Shown here piece by piece: positions 21,133 to 27,032 of a stretch of DNA of 64,000 nucleotides. The notes under the pieces are model-generated. The model was given only the letters and a program-made list of their open reading frames with translations, searched no databases and was not told where the DNA came from. This stretch comes from Desulfosarcina sp. BuS5 (GTDB taxonomy: Bacteria > Desulfobacterota > Desulfobacteria > Desulfobacterales > BuS5): NCBI RefSeq assembly GCF_028752835.1, contig NZ_CP087952.1:2089041-2153040 (forward strand). Reading direction: 5' to 3'. The translations under genes were made by a program, and so were the position numbers. The first letter of the stretch is position 1; each line of letters opens with the position of its first letter.

Positions 21133-22010
21133 GGTAGTCCCTACAAAACAATGCAGGTTCGAAAAATCAGCTACTTACAAGGTATTGGGACTGTAATGAG
21201 ATATCTCCAGTTGCAGGTAAGCATAAGGAATTTCAGACATAATGTTTTCGAGCGCATTTTTGTAAGCCGCTAATTTATCTGTAGCGACCTTTAATATATT
21301 ATCTTTTCCCCATTTGCCCAACTTTTTAATGCCCTTTACTAAACGGTTTGCAGTGTAAGTTGTTCTTGAACCCAACTCGAAACCGATCCAGAATTTTGTT
21401 GTGGATTCAAGAGCGATAAAAACCCATAATTGTTGACTTTTATTTTTAAGGTAAGACCATAGTTCATCCATCTGGAGAAATATAATGGTAAGTCCGATAG
21501 TAAAACAAAGAAATAGGTGAAATTGCTGGCCTTTTTGCCCAATAGTTTTTTGCCGTTGTTCAATTGTCCTTCGATCTTTTTGAAGTACATCGGCAATTGC
21601 ATCAGTGCCAAGGCCGTAAGAGTTTAGCTTTGCCGTTTGCTCATATTCTTTAAAACTGCCATGCTTTCCAAAAAGATCGGAATATCCTGTTTCTGAGAAT
21701 CTATGTTTGCCACCATTGCAGTAAAACATTTGTCTTGGCTCAAAATCGGATTTTGTTATGTAAACTCCATCCTTGGTGATTTTGTTCTCGGTTGATTGAT
21801 AACATTTGCAGCTTTTCCTGGGACAAAAAAGTGTTAGGGCTGTATTTGCTGTATTTTGCATGGTTGCGATCCTTTGAATAGAGTTTTAACCGTGCTCTAC
21901 AAAATATATTGCTTTTAGTCTATAGCAATCTTAATTTTTAGTAAAAATCTTTTTTATTCATGTTTTCAGAGACACTTTTTAATCACCTGCATTGTTTTGT
22001 AGAGACTACC
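21133..22010 (-). mobile_element. IS1-like element, internally deleted copy
   Basis: 878 bp bounded by 26-bp terminal inverted repeats beginning GGTAGTCCCTACAAAACAAT (left, 21133) and GGTAGTCTCTACAAAACAAT (right end, complement at 22010), with one mismatch. No matching target duplication is visible (left flank GCGAAATTT, right flank GAAGAAAGA). About 343 bp are missing from the middle of the transposase gene compared with the copy at 16340. Confidence 0.85.
21175..21861 (-). pseudogene. IS1-like transposase with internal deletion
   Basis: The N-terminus CPRKSCKCYQS is the IS1-type zinc finger, followed by the HTH TDAIADVLQKDRRTIEQRQK and the first part of the DDE domain (MDELWSYLKN...). After AYLQ the frame jumps, through the 343-bp deletion, to the last few codons and ends out of frame (LEISHYSPNTL). 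Residues from MDELWSYL to AYLQ (about 88) are identical to the other copy. Unlikely to be active. Confidence 0.75.
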
Positions 22011-22265: not shown

Positions 22266-24104
22266 ATGCTCATAAATAGTTGGTCCAAAAGGATCTCTGA
22301 CTGGTCCGAATATTGTCAGGACGCCGCTCAACGGTCAGTACTCTTCATGGATATTATTCGCAAACGCGGTAACGTTTACCTGGAGCACCTGCAGAAAGGC
22401 CAGCCACCGGTGCTGGTATTCGATTACGACATAGTTTTGGATGGACGGACGTTTGAACGGCCGGTCAACTATGCCCTGGTGCGCATTTTAAGTCGACGCG
22501 ACGAGAGCAAAGCAGACAGACGCCAATCCCCGAAGCCCCCCGTAGCAGGCCAACCAAATCACAGGGACAAAAGAAAGCCACGGCGTCACCGGACAAGTGT
22601 CGCAACCGAAGCTCCGGAAGCCATTAGCCGCCCTGTCATCATCTTCGATCCCCGGGCTGGACACGGTCCCGGTATCGGCGGCTCAAAAGCTGATTCACAA
22701 ATCGGCATGGCCATGGATGCCGGCCATCCAGTCTATTTTTTGATCTTTTTCACGTCGCCTATGCCCGGCCAGACGCTGACGGATGTACGCAATGCTCAGA
22801 TCCAATTTGTTGAAGAGGTTCGCCGTCTGCATCCCGATGCGCCCCAACCAGCTATCATCGGCAATTGTCAGGGGGGATGGGCAGCAGCCCTGGTCGGCGT
22901 GAAGCGGCCGGATCTGGTGGGCCCAATGGTATTTAACGGCTCTCCTCTCTCCTATTGGGCCGGTGTGGAAGGCGTCAGTCCAATACGCTATATGGGTGGA
23001 TTGCTGGGCGGCGTATGGATAACGTCTCTGCTCAGCGACCTGGGTGACGGCATTTTCGACGGTGCCCACCTGGTGGCCAATTTCGAGAATCTCAATCCAG
23101 CCAACACCCTGTGGACCAAACAATACCACCTCTACGCCAATGTGGACACCGAGGAACAACGCTATCTCGATTTTGAGAAATGGTGGGGCGGTTTTTTTCT
23201 CATGACCAAAGCGGAAATTCATCAGATCGTCGACGGTCTTTTCATCGGCAACCGATTGGAGCGGGGAGAATTCCAACTCGAAGGCAATCGGGCAGTCGAT
23301 CTCAAGAAAAACACCAATCCAGTAGTGGTTTTCACTTCCTTCGGTGATAACATCACACCTCCCCAGCAAGCCCTCAACTGGATTATCAAAACTTATGGAT
23401 ACGTCGATGAAATAAAACGACGCGGCCAGGTTATAGTGTATGTCATCCATTCAAGCATCGGCCACTTAGGAATTTTTGTTTCCGCCAAAATTGCCCGCAA
23501 ACAGCATAAGAGCATTATCGCCAGTTTTGACTTGCTCTACAAACTGGAGCCCGGTCTTTACGAAATGCGAATCGAGGAGGACCCAAACCAGTATGGAGAA
23601 TATCATTTTCAATATGAGGAAAAAACCATGGGTGATATTATGGCTTTTGACGATGGCTTAGAGGATGAGGAAACCTTCATGTCAGTCAGGCAAATGTCCG
23701 AGGCCACGGATCTGGTTTATCATACGACGGTCTCACCCTGGATCAGGATGGTCACCACGCCGGTTACCGCCGAAGCGCTTCGCCAGCTTCATCCCTTGAG
23801 GATCTCCCGCTACCTCTTCTCCGACCTCAATCCTTGGATGTGGCCGGTCCAGTTCTGGGCCGATCAAATCAAAGAAAAGAGGGCCTATGAAACGCTGGCC
23901 GACGAAGATAATATGTTTGTCAGTTGGGAGAAAAACATGTCGAGAATGATAATCGATGGGCTGGACAATTTCCGGGTCATCCGCGATAACTGGGGGGAAT
24001 TGATGTTCAAAACGATTTATGGAGCAAAATGGGGTCACCCATTAAAGGTTAAGTCAAGAAAAAAAACACCTCTCCTGTCAAAAAAATATTGTTTTTTTTT
24101 GTAA
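22266..24104 (+). CDS. DUF3141 protein (PHA-synthase-like alpha/beta hydrolase), C-terminus lost
   Basis: 612-aa alpha/beta-hydrolase of the DUF3141 family, related to class III polyhydroxyalkanoate synthases. The nucleophile elbow is GNCQGGW (Cys about 201), the Asp lies in SFGDN (about 361) and the His in SIGHLG (about 400), giving a Cys-His-Asp triad. A strong AAAGGAGG site precedes ATG 22266. The last ~18 residues (VKSRKKTPLLSKKYCFFL) do not fit the family and read into an AT-rich stretch, so the natural C-terminal region seems to be lost. In other genomes these genes usually neighbour phosphotransacetylase or ketoreductase genes; none is here. Its GC content looks higher than its surroundings, hinting at transfer. 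Confidence 0.75.
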   Translation: MLINSWSKRISDWSEYCQDAAQRSVLFMDIIRKRGNVYLEHLQKGQPPVLVFDYDIVLDGRTFERPVNYALVRILSRRDESKADRRQSPKPPVAGQPNHRDKRKPRRHRTSVATEAPEAISRPVIIFDPRAGHGPGIGGSKADSQIGMAMDAGHPVYFLIFFTSPMPGQTLTDVRNAQIQFVEEVRRLHPDAPQPAIIGNCQGGWAAALVGVKRPDLVGPMVFNGSPLSYWAGVEGVSPIRYMGGLLGGVWITSLLSDLGDGIFDGAHLVANFENLNPANTLWTKQYHLYANVDTEEQRYLDFEKWWGGFFLMTKAEIHQIVDGLFIGNRLERGEFQLEGNRAVDLKKNTNPVVVFTSFGDNITPPQQALNWIIKTYGYVDEIKRRGQVIVYVIHSSIGHLGIFVSAKIARKQHKSIIASFDLLYKLEPGLYEMRIEEDPNQYGEYHFQYEEKTMGDIMAFDDGLEDEETFMSVRQMSEATDLVYHTTVSPWIRMVTTPVTAEALRQLHPLRISRYLFSDLNPWMWPVQFWADQIKEKRAYETLADEDNMFVSWEKNMSRMIIDGLDNFRVIRDNWGELMFKTIYGAKWGHPLKVKSRKKTPLLSKKYCFFL

Positions 24105-24477
24105 TTTTCTACGTAGAATAAAAGCACAAAAAAATTTATATTCACATCTGTTACTTCTTTTTGTTGGTTCACGGTATGTTAATCCGCACCAGTCACCCAT
24201 CAGGATTCAGGCTTATTATGCTCCAAGCAAATGCTTAAGAAACATTGCCCTCGCTGCCATTTCAGCAGCCCAGAAAATCTTCAGTTCCGTATCGTGTCCA
24301 ATTGTTTGTTTTCAAATCTTATGGTTATTAGCCAACCCCATTATAGGTTCACGACACAGGCGAATTAAAAGATATTTTGAGATTTTATTCTGTTATATTT
24401 TTAAAGGAACAGAAGCTGCCAATCAAGTCTTATGAATTAAAATCAACCCCAATTCCGGTTCACTTCTGTTCCCAAAC
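24105..24477. other. Non-coding stretch with degenerate direct repeats
   Basis: No credible gene. Two imperfect direct repeats of about 40 bases share CTTATG and CAACCCC then GGTTCAC (about 24319-24351 and 24429-24462). They may be leftovers of IS ends. Confidence 0.3.
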
Positions 24478-24576
24478 TTATTTTCTAAAAAGATACTCTA
24501 CGTCATAATCCACCTGATCTCGCATTACATAATATGAAGCTCTTGCAATTTTATTGCTTAATGCTTTGATTGCCAC
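24478..24576 (-). pseudogene. IS110-type transposase, C-terminal relic
   Basis: The - strand frame reads ALSNKIARASYYVMRDQVDY and ends at 24478, the pattern of the C-terminus of IS110-family transposases. Only about 32 codons remain, and they overlap the 3' end of the zinc protein gene in another frame. Confidence 0.5.
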
Positions 24577-25030
24577 TATTCCATTTCTCTTTCAATTGTT
24601 GCAAACCACGGAGGGTATTTACAATGTCATCTTGTAACGCATTTCCGGTAATATTGGCTATTAAGCCAAGCAAAACAGCAGGTTGCATTATTAAGGCATC
24701 TTGTAACGCAAAGCCTGTGTTTTGAGGATTATCGTCTTTGTTTTCAGATGGTTGAGCCGTTAAGGAATCTTGTAACGCATCCCGTTTTTTTGCTGATCGC
24801 CGCCAGTACCCCGGATTTCTTTTTCGCCACTCCTGAACCCGCTGGACATTCTCCGGCCCGCTAAAATAATTTTGATTCTCAGGTTTACTCAGCCATTTCT
24901 TCTGACTTGCAACCTTACTGGCTTTTCGACACGCAGGATTAAAACAGTGCTTCTGCCGACTTCTATTGCGAGCATCGGGTATGAACAACTTGCCGCAATG
25001 ACAACATTTAGTTTGTTTTATGGATTTCAT
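24551..25030 (-). CDS. Zinc-finger protein with ALQD repeats, mobile-element associated
   Basis: 159 aa. The N-terminus CCHCGKLFIPDARN and HCFNPACRKASK form a zinc-finger-like start. Then come SQKKWLSKPENQNYF, a sequence I know from proteins associated with mobile DNA in sulfate reducers, and VQRVQEWRKRNPGYWRRS. The C-terminal half has three copies of an ALQD unit, encoded by repeated TCTTGTAACGC blocks at about 24632, 24710 and 24770. The last residues lie over the IS110 relic, so the natural end may be altered. Function unknown. Confidence 0.55.
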   Translation of the reverse strand: MKSIKQTKCCHCGKLFIPDARNRSRQKHCFNPACRKASKVASQKKWLSKPENQNYFSGPENVQRVQEWRKRNPGYWRRSAKKRDALQDSLTAQPSENKDDNPQNTGFALQDALIMQPAVLLGLIANITGNALQDDIVNTLRGLQQLKEKWNSGNQSIKQ

Positions 25031-25212
25031 TCACAAAGCACCCCCTTACGGTGACAATATGAATAATTTTGAAATTCAGAAATGGGAAATATGAAAAAAA
25101 TACAAGGAAGAAGATGGAAGAATAGTTTGAAAATAATGAATGGATTGGAAGAAAATCACACGAAAGAAAAATACATTTTTAAACCGCCAGTTTTATGGCA
25201 CTTTTAAGTTAC

Positions 25213-25357
25213 CGCTGACAAACCAAACGCTGAAAGAGACTGGGCAGATGCTCCGCATTTTCGGAAGGCAATTTTTTAACGACATTTTACAATTTTACAA
25301 TTTAATCAGCGCTGTAGGGTTGGCTCTGCCCAGCCAGCCCCTCAGCTCAGCGTTTCA
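25213..25357. repeat. attC-like integron recombination site A
   Basis: A bipartite imperfect palindrome. The left part is GCTGACAAACC then AAACGCTGAAAGAGACTGGG. The right part begins TCTGCCCAGCCAGCCCCTC and ends CAGCGTTTCAGC. The outer arms pair as GCTGA-AAAC with GTTTCAGC, and the inner arms CTGGGCAGA/TCTGCCCAG pair exactly. Order and sequence resemble Vibrio-type attC sites (AACAAACGCC...GACTG / GCCAGCCCCT...GCGTT). The spacer is about 77 bases. No gene is credible across it. Confidence 0.6.
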
Positions 25358-25411
25358 GCGATTGGATTAATTAAAAAATAAACTTATTGCTTGTCTTTTG
25401 TAATCTTGTGC

Positions 25412-25424
25412 GTTACATTGTAAC
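25412..25424. promoter_or_regulatory. Probable higBA operator
   Basis: GTTACATTGTAAC is a perfect 6+1+6 palindrome ending one base before the higB ATG, where HigA-type antitoxins bind. TTACAT inside it may also be the -10 box. Confidence 0.5.
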
Positions 25425-25425
25425 T

Positions 25426-25722
25426 ATGATTAAGAATTTTCGTGATAATTGGCTACGAAAGTTTTTCGTGGAGGACATTCAGGCAAAAAAAATACCCGCT
25501 GATATTCGTTCACGATTGTTTAGGAAATTACAACTGTTGGATGATGCAACGAATGATGCTGACTTGAGAAGTCCACCCAGCAATCATTTTGAAAAATTAT
25601 CTGGCAAATTAAAAGATAAATGCTCCATACGTGTCAATGACCAATGGCGTTTAATTTTTACTTGGGATGATGAACACGGGGAGGCGAATGACATTTATAT
25701 TGATGATCATTCATATAAATGA
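25426..25722 (+). CDS. higB: HigB-type toxin (RelE superfamily mRNA interferase)
   Basis: 98 aa from ATG 25426 (MIKNFRDNWLRKFF), exactly how this family begins; the frame is open further upstream but through promoter DNA. KLQLLDDATNDADLRSPPSN, LSGKLKDKCSIRVNDQWRL and DIYIDDHSYK follow, giving the full RelE fold with its basic active-site region. Expected role: ribosome-dependent mRNA cleavage, blocked by HigA. Toxin precedes antitoxin, as in higBA loci, 8 bases apart. The pair sits between two attC-like sites, as toxin-antitoxin cassettes do in chromosomal integrons, where they stabilise arrays. Confidence 0.9.
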   Translation: MIKNFRDNWLRKFFVEDIQAKKIPADIRSRLFRKLQLLDDATNDADLRSPPSNHFEKLSGKLKDKCSIRVNDQWRLIFTWDDEHGEANDIYIDDHSYK

Positions 25723-25730
25723 GGTATAAA

Positions 25731-26042
25731 ATGATTATAACTAAACGTAAACCCGTCAGTGTCGGTGAAATGATTAATGAAGAATTTATTGCACCTTTGG
25801 GAATTACTCAGGGGCAACTATCTTCTGCAATGGGCGTCAGTCGAAGAACTGTAAATGAACTTTGCACTGGTAAGAGATCTATAACCGTTGATACTGCTTT
25901 AATGTTAGCTAAAGTATTTGGAAATACAGCGAATTTTTGGCTTAATTTACAGCAACGAAATGATATATGGGCTGCACTACATTCCCCGAAGCGAATGGAA
26001 AAAATTGAGCGTGTTAGTCCAATTCGTGAAGCAATTGCATAG
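25731..26042 (+). CDS. higA: HigA-type antitoxin (XRE family)
   Basis: 103 aa from ATG 25731, with GAGG seven bases upstream. HTH residues GITQGQLSSAMGVSRRTVNE are followed by the family-specific GKRSITVDTALMLAKVFGN and FWLNLQQRND. It binds and neutralises HigB and represses the operon. The frame could start at 25719, but that start lacks a ribosome binding site. Confidence 0.9.
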   Translation: MIITKRKPVSVGEMINEEFIAPLGITQGQLSSAMGVSRRTVNELCTGKRSITVDTALMLAKVFGNTANFWLNLQQRNDIWAALHSPKRMEKIERVSPIREAIA

Positions 26043-26090
26043 AAAATTATCGGCCATTTCTATCATAAAATCAGCATATTAAATATAAAA

Positions 26091-26226
26091 GCACCGAACA
26101 AGACGCCTGAGAGGGGCCGGGCAAAGCCGTGCCGTTTTTTGAAAGATGGTATTGGACCGGTAATTCTTACCTTTATCATAGTTTTTCGGTTATCGTTGCC
26201 CAGCCACTCAGCTTTACGTTGGAGCT
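26091..26226. repeat. attC-like integron recombination site B
   Basis: The left half has CCGAACAAGACGCCTGAGAG then GGGCCGGGCAA. The right half has TTGCCCAGCCACTCAGC then TTTACGTTGGAGC. The outer AAC/GTT, CTGAG/CTCAG and GGGCAA/TTGCCC boxes pair. The 3' core GTTGGAG is one base from the GTTRRRY consensus. It starts 49 bases after higA, so the cassette A-to-B is about 860 bp. Confidence 0.65.
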
Positions 26227-26237
26227 AAAGGAAATGA

Positions 26238-26492
26238 TCAGTAGTGGTAGCGCAACTGGGCGATATGAATTGCATTTTCAGATACTTTATAAACGAACCT
26301 GTGTCATCAGTGATTCGTCGAGACCAGTAGCCGGAAAGAGCATGTTTAAGCGGTTCAGGTTTCCCAACACCCTCAAATGGATTTCGTTTCATTTCTTTGA
26401 TGAGGGTATTGATACGACGAAGAACTTTTTTTATCGGTGTTCTGCCAAAAGAGATAATCATCCCAAGCGTGGTCAGAAAAGATGAGCTTCAC
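26238..26492 (-). pseudogene. yoeB: Frameshifted YoeB toxin gene
   Basis: Read across frames it gives [16 protein letters not shown], then [20 protein letters not shown] and [15 protein letters not shown], then HRFVYKV and AQLRYHY, an almost complete YoeB. Two frameshifts break it: an extra A in the AAAAAAA run near 26424, and one in GATGACAC near 26312. Start GTG overlaps the yefM stop, the normal coupling. It sits just after attC site B, facing the other way from higBA. Confidence 0.8.
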
Positions 26493-26733
26493 TCTAAAAG
26501 TTCCTTTTCGGTCCCTTTGCCGTTTTCAAGTTGGGCGATAGATTCAATCAAACGCCTGGTGTTTTTTGGTGACCTTAAGAGATAAGCCGTTTCTTCAAGG
26601 GCTTCATAGTCCTCAAGTGACATAATGACCACAGAGTTAGAGGTGTTACGATTACCGGCGCACGGTCTTTACATACTTTTTCCATTGTTTTTGCAAGGTC
26701 TTGCCTGGCGGCTGTATAGGTTATAGCTTCCAT
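26489..26733 (-). pseudogene. yefM: Frameshifted YefM antitoxin gene
   Basis: MEAITYTAARQDLAKTMEKV and APVIVT, then in another frame SNSVVIMSLEDYEALEETAY and ending EKELLE. One base is lost near 26645 (ACACCTCTAAC). Start ATG 26733 has GGGGGTG upstream. With yoeB it is a complete but dead toxin-antitoxin pair. Confidence 0.8.
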
Positions 26734-26778
26734 AAAGCACCCCCTGTACAGATTGTTGTACATATAAAAATGGTGTTG

Positions 26779-27032
26779 TCAAGCGCATATTTTATTGTAA
26801 CAGGCCACACACCTTGAAAAATCAATCCTTTCATTATGCAAATCAATACAACTGGCTTTGCATACTTTTTCACATGCCTTGCACTTGTGATACACTCTGA
26901 CGGATTTAATTTTATTTTAAATAGCGAATACCTGGATAAAAAACCTAAAAACGTCCCCACCGGACAAATGGTATTGCAATACAATCTGCCGCATTTCAGG
27001 CTCATAAATAAGATGAGTCCGAAAATTGCCAT
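26779..27032 (-). pseudogene. NapH-like 4Fe-4S membrane ferredoxin fragment
   Basis: KCGRLYCNTICPVGTFLGFL is the membrane-edge CxxxCP motif of NapH/RdxA-type ferredoxins. After a frameshift near 26907 the frame gives KCKACEKVC and CVACYN, the [4Fe-4S] motifs. It is cut at both ends: a stop precedes it, and the 3' end stops at 26779, 46 bases before the yefM gene start (26733). The coding frame extends slightly upstream to about 27068. Confidence 0.6.

Follow-up and report, generated by a model that had tools for sequence, protein, structure and literature searches.

A higBA cassette between two attC sites in Desulfosarcina sp. BuS5, probably a decaying remnant of an integron cassette array

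Are two palindromes that flank a toxin-antitoxin pair, with no integrase gene beside them, integron attC sites, and how did such a unit come to stand alone? The question is raised by a locus of Desulfosarcina sp. BuS5, whose genome comprises 4.18 Mb in two contigs (C1 and C2 in what follows). The window, meaning the whole 64-kb stretch of DNA analysed, is C1:2089041-2153040; positions without a contig name are window positions. The original prediction, made from the sequence alone, had described two attC-like palindromes around a cassette-sized unit and had called them Vibrio-type.

Site 1 (25217-25358, + strand) is the 3' site of a cassette formerly to its left, and site 2 (26093-26224, + strand) is the 3' site of the higBA cassette. 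Both have AAC at the end of the R'' box and GTT at the start of the R' core, at the edges of the palindrome, while the remaining box bases are degraded. The R'' of site 1 is shortened to AAC (25221-25223) and its R' core is GTTTCAG (25352-25358, with GTT at 25352-25354). Site 2 has the R'' ACCGAAC (26093-26099, with AAC at 26097-26099) and the R' core GTTGGAG (26218-26224, with GTT at 26218-26220). Inner and outer arms pair in both sites, just as had been predicted.

A covariance model, R1, was prepared from ten other attC sites of the same genome, deliberately excluding the families of both sites. The training sites belong to the array at the intI gene C1:3966820-3967764, to a group at 807-819 kb and to a group at 2.98 Mb; a palindrome scan by duplex energy was the source of array attCs for training. 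An alignment of 15 rows, three of which had wrong edges, was dropped, and one of 12 was reduced to 10 by removing two with an extra arm base. In the final alignment both partners vary in 15 of the 19 arm pairs, and pairing holds in 89.5% of cells; sliding the partner brings this down to 47.6% at most. Run unfiltered on both strands of the 64 kb, R1 gave 12 matches up to an E-value of 10, with site 1 ranked first (24.3 bits, E 0.0013) and site 2 second (18.4 bits, E 0.035). By these ranks, both sites have the paired arms with spacer and bulges that are common to known attCs. The third-ranked match in the window reached 11.9 bits (E 1.3), and in a control search, also unfiltered, of 80 kb taken from elsewhere in the genome the best of four matches had 14.7 bits. 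Scaled by length to the whole genome, the E-values become about 0.08 for site 1 and about 2 for site 2, and neither is among the 77 matches listed from a genome-wide R1 search in which the best 150 of 1593 candidates were scored. In the window, Rfam models at gathering scores matched just one tRNA, and no attC.

Both palindromes are genuine attC sites, since they have sequence relatives among the array attCs of the genome. For site 1, the array attC at C1:4007957 shows 80.6% identity across 134 nt (E 4e-27), and others show 76-78%. Two attCs of the same genome resemble site 2, one at C1:853543 with 87.1% identity across 124 nt and one at 2974869 with 83.1%, and an attC in locus L070, from a Desulfobacterales MAG, reaches 89.0% across 127 nt. 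The two attC-like palindromes therefore hold up, on the R1 ranks and on homology. The Vibrio-type label does not: the closest relatives are attCs of the same genome and the same order. The occurrence of the same palindromes in unrelated contexts had been counted in advance against an attC identity. Such copies trivially exist, as relatives of both sites adjoin other cassettes, which is normal for attC sites.

A fold of the bottom strand had also been suggested as a check, and energy alone does not set the sites apart. Site 1 gave a z-score of -2.43 (3 of 200 shuffles as stable), or -1.96 when trimmed (7 of 200), and site 2 one of -0.53 (53 of 200), or -1.32 when trimmed (22 of 200). Four array attCs gave -3.76, -1.28, -2.13 and -2.23. 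Since the z-scores of array attCs and of both sites overlap, folding energy has no discriminating power here and was rejected as proof. The duplex-energy scan for AAC...GTT palindromes was likewise rejected as evidence for the sites; it is noisy, since at its threshold even one shuffle gives 7 matches where the window gives 17, and site 1 is absent from the 17.

Between the cleavage points of the two sites lies a unit of 866 bp (25353-26218, + strand), close to the roughly 860 bp estimated before. As foreseen, it holds one toxin-antitoxin pair. The 98-aa product of higB (25426-25722, +) is a HigB-type toxin of the RelE superfamily (PF05015, 107 bits, cut-off 27). The 103-aa product of higA (25731-26042, +) is a HigA antitoxin by TIGR02607 (101.4 bits, cut-off 47.7) that also matches HTH_3 (41.9 bits, cut-off 23). 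Both reading frames are open and full-length, and the genes have the HigBA order, with the toxin gene first in one operon and 8 nt between them. On these matches higBA is a predicted type II toxin-antitoxin pair.

The toxin is 93% identical over 98 of 98 residues to one in locus L062, and the body of the unit is identical at 713 of 741 positions (96%) to locus L063 of a Desulfobacteraceae MAG. There the body is bounded by GTTCGGC and GCCGAAC, exact reverse complements, followed by an attC (R1 match at 928-1045). We therefore identify the higBA unit, by comparison with this near-identical body and its matching ends, as a putative integron cassette. A gene cassette begins with the reverse complement of its R''. 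This correspondence is complete in L063 (7 of 7 bases) and is lost in the window, where the start GTTTCAG matches the R'' ACCGAAC at 3 of 7; the window R'' still matches 6 of 7 bases of the start of the L063 orthologue.

How unusual such a mismatch is can be judged from the arrays of the genome. The sample was 38 + strand attCs from two regions of the 77 matches, 33 of which have a left boundary within 3 kb. Start and R'' agree at six or more of seven bases in 32 of these 33 cassettes and at all seven in 28; shuffled pairings give a mean of 6.4 and a maximum of 14 against the 32 of 33. The five array attCs excluded for a left boundary beyond 3 kb score 4, 7, 4, 5 and 5 of 7. We take the mismatch in the window as a sign that a former cassette has decayed, and not as grounds for placing the unit outside the kind.

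Damage, on which the original prediction was silent, is present on both sides of the fragment. On the left, the AAC of the site 1 R'' directly abuts the terminus of an IS21-type insertion sequence (24593-25220, - strand), of which only this end, including a portion of the first ORF, is left at the locus. These 628 bp are 100% identical at two other places in the genome. All three copies share the end that lies at 25220 in the window, and only the window copy has its left side cut, at 24593. A fuller copy encodes an IS21 transposase (NF033546, 280 bits, cut-off 160) and IstB (NF038214, 261.5 bits, cut-off 200). That site 1 might be part of the insertion sequence was considered and rejected, because the bases past the shared end differ among the three places. 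Read by eye, the right arm of site 1 has four extra bases relative to its array relatives, and site 2 has a G at an A that is invariant in the ten R1 sequences.

Debris of insertion sequences abounds to the left of the cassette, including a remnant of an IS1-type transposase (21178-21861, PF03400) and a segment of 493 bp (24100-24592) that is 99% identical to C1:1186011-1186503. Inside the IS-borne ORF is a 69-nt tandem repeat in three copies (24607-24779).

On the right, the start of the next cassette follows directly: a yefM-yoeB remnant (26219-26791, - strand), in reverse orientation, with both frames broken and its own attC missing. Its pieces match PF06769 (69.5 bits) and, below the cut-off of 29.8, PF02604 (26.6 bits). 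No third attC lies beyond it, and the window has no further R1 match above 12 bits. The remnant is 81% identical over 577 nt to locus L017, in which the pair is bounded (by eye) by GTTGGGG and CCCCAAC, with an R1 match about 0.5 kb off; to judge by these ends, the L017 relative is likely to be a cassette. A fragment of a NapH-like ferredoxin-type protein (26724-27032; TIGR02163, 27 bits against a cut-off of 213) is apparently cut by the cassette remnant.

The absence of an integrase, as originally stated, is true of the window and not of the genome. The intI model has no match inside the 64 kb. Elsewhere there are three full-length intI genes (TIGR02249, 436, 428 and 426 bits against a curated cut-off of 265) and a broken fourth with two stops (C1:1259560-1260042, L004). 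The full intI closest to the cassette (C1:2180843-2181787, L001) is 65.6 kb to the right. This gene looks cassette-less, since no R1 match within the surrounding 40 kb (L009, L010) exceeds 10.2 bits. With no intI within 65 kb, the two sites are indeed an orphan attC pair.

The advice to look for intI and further attC sites in the genome proved fruitful. In addition to the three full intI genes, the genome-wide R1 search, with the best 150 of 1593 candidates scored, yielded at least 77 attC matches; several groups are seen, with or without an intI beside them, as well as solitary matches. A large array lies upstream of the intI at C1:3966820-3967764, and among the matches listed two large groups adjoin an intI. 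Among these same matches the closest other attC is about 222 kb to the left of the locus and about 175 kb to the right. Groups are found at C1:3966820-4043325, 789-854 kb, 896-1048 kb and 2966-2980 kb, and on contig C2. One stretch of the large array region (C1:4004337-4008551, L048) has tandem near-identical cassettes of about 340 bp, with bodies 92-99% and attCs 87-100% identical, which suggests recent duplication.

A further repeat in this genome is a 201-nt element with several hairpins and no ORF. At least 32 near-full copies (91-100% identity) and at least five partial ones were found, 40 of 48 candidates having been scored; examples are at C1:3967972-3968172, 3968918, 789476, 1541463 and 2851003 (L011, L012, L028-L049). 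Among the 28 full copies with flanks, 27 lie directly before GTT and one before GAT. The sites are behind attCs, at two attI-like places next to an intI gene or the intI remnant, and at two places that lack an attC. The first bases of the element, GATAAGT, recur inside it in reverse complement as ACTTATC, as in the gene-cassette rule. The element may thus be a cassette that carries no ORF, has an unusual core (GAT) and became amplified; the rival reading is a miniature transposon that targets attC. Matches to it occur in 8 of 96 genomes, this one included.

How does the locus compare with known systems? It is a CALIN with a toxin-antitoxin cassette, an ordinary kind of genome fossil. As in other CALINs there are at least two attCs close together (here two, about 0.9 kb apart), no nearby intI (the closest full one being that at 65.6 kb) and a degraded look. 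Nothing places it outside the kind; it is of the smallest size, with both ends damaged, and CALINs of two attCs fall within the reporting rule of IntegronFinder 2 as given in PMC9024848. With the toxin-antitoxin cassettes of sedentary chromosomal integrons it shares the arrangement of both genes of a type II pair within a single cassette, and such pairs are described as commonly reported cassette cargo (PMC8618304, PMC11023631). The window cassette differs from these in lying outside an array, so that there is no array for higBA to stabilise here. The attC families of the sedentary integron of the same genome, at intI C1:3966820-3967764, are homologous to the window sites, but its intact cassettes keep the match of start and R'', which the window cassette does not.

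We conclude that the locus is very probably a decaying remnant of an integron cassette array, isolated in a chromosome with working-looking integrons. Parts of three successive cassettes are present (site 1, higBA with site 2, and the start of yefM-yoeB), which argues for a remnant, not one stray cassette. Folded attC bottom strands are recombined by IntI and cut in R', with R'' also needed, according to PMC2727003. By such reactions IntI would have joined the cassettes, cutting single-stranded folded attCs at the R' core. A piece of the array would then have been parted from the integrase and the rest by rearrangement or loss, and would have decayed: the IS21-type insertion would have removed the cassette to which site 1 belonged, and the remaining recombination boxes would have drifted. 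Retention by addiction has been proposed for toxin-antitoxin cassettes. The higBA frames are open and those of the neighbouring pair broken, so addiction, making loss of the antitoxin costly, may have kept higBA in place. The weak points of the remnant reading are the modest score of site 2 (18.4 bits) and the absence of both sites from the matches listed genome-wide.

Off-target insertion by a resident IntI into a non-integron site, with no array ever present, is an unlikely alternative. It is one of three origins proposed for CALINs in PMC8618304, the others being loss of intI and rearrangement, and it would suit a genome with three full intI genes and single attC matches scattered over the chromosome. 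A single insertion, however, does not yield an upstream attC of another family together with two successive cassettes; the three partial cassettes in succession favour loss of intI or rearrangement. Somewhat less probable again is that the cassette pair is still mobile, served in trans by IntI from elsewhere. Intact intI genes at three places, the pairing arms of both sites and the open higBA frames are in keeping with such mobility, and the three resident IntI could act in trans. Against it, the R'' of site 1 is cut by the insertion sequence, the cassette start no longer matches its R'', and the genome has no second close copy of higB (a single match at E 1e-25 or better), so that mobility appears to have been lost. 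That the palindromes are chance matches or belong to another repeat family resembling attC (REP-like, terminators) is very improbable: the fold energy of site 2 is unexceptional (z -0.53 and -1.32), but the two sites lead the window with a model from which their families were left out, they are 76-81% (site 1) and 83-87% (site 2) identical to array attCs of the genome, and cassette ends are present in orthologous loci.

The remnant reading concerns this locus; the family of its toxin extends further. HigB relatives were found in 3 of 395 genomes of the phylum and in 20 of 389 genomes of the order. Among 80 loci with such relatives, R1 matches are found in six (L063, L064, L065, L067, L070 and L127), with attCs on both sides of higBA in L065 and L127. 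The other 74 have no R1 match, so higBA is not necessarily a cassette everywhere. As far as can be told within the reach of R1 and the flanks examined, much of the HigB family lies outside cassettes.

Where higBA is followed by an attC, the boundary between body and site is sharp. An R'' of the form [AG]CCGAAC stands behind higA in six of 21 HigB loci: the window, L063, L065, L067, L070 and L127 (labelled L162, L166, L168, L171, L173 and L179 in the sample of 389 genomes). Two of the 21 end before the R'' point, and one duplicates another. Behind the R'' of the six loci are five attC cores, only L065 and L070 sharing one (93%). The remaining 14 core comparisons are at the level of shuffled sequence. 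Shuffles reach the observed identity in 2 of 100 cases for the window and L063, 3 of 100 for the window and L067 and 4 of 100 for L063 and L127, a slight excess that could come from shared short attC motifs. The attC of L067 is weak (22 bits with R1). The contrast is sharpest between the window and L063, whose 96% identity stops at R'', the sequences being unrelated immediately past it: over the 60 nt that lead up to AAC identity is 93%, and over the attC that follows it is 53%, against 47% for shuffles. Free movement of attCs between bodies within this genome was considered and rejected, since in a comparison of 36 cassettes 25 of 26 pairs with similar bodies have attCs at least 87% identical, the exception being the pair of the window and L063.

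It is conceivable, though we hold it doubtful, that cassette bodies and attC cores are exchangeable separately and that the crossover falls precisely at the R'' core. For the segment between R'' and R' to be exchanged, recombination would have to occur at R''. PMC2727003 gives R' as the normal crossover in assays and reads recombination at R'' as use of the top strand. A rare IntI event at R'', by top-strand use of a folded attC, followed by an ordinary one at R' would produce the exchange. Alternatively, the body may be of common descent and its attC may have been replaced repeatedly and independently by homologous recombination. A search of the literature by title found no paper on attC exchange at R''.

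The locus thus matters mainly through its relatives, with their 96% identical body, unrelated cores and break at the R'' core. How genes came to be associated with attC sites is called an outstanding question in PMC8618304. If real, exchange at R'' would be a visible route by which genes gain an attC and so a part of cassette making, and the break between body and core at R'' makes one possible answer on attC acquisition countable in genomes, and testable.
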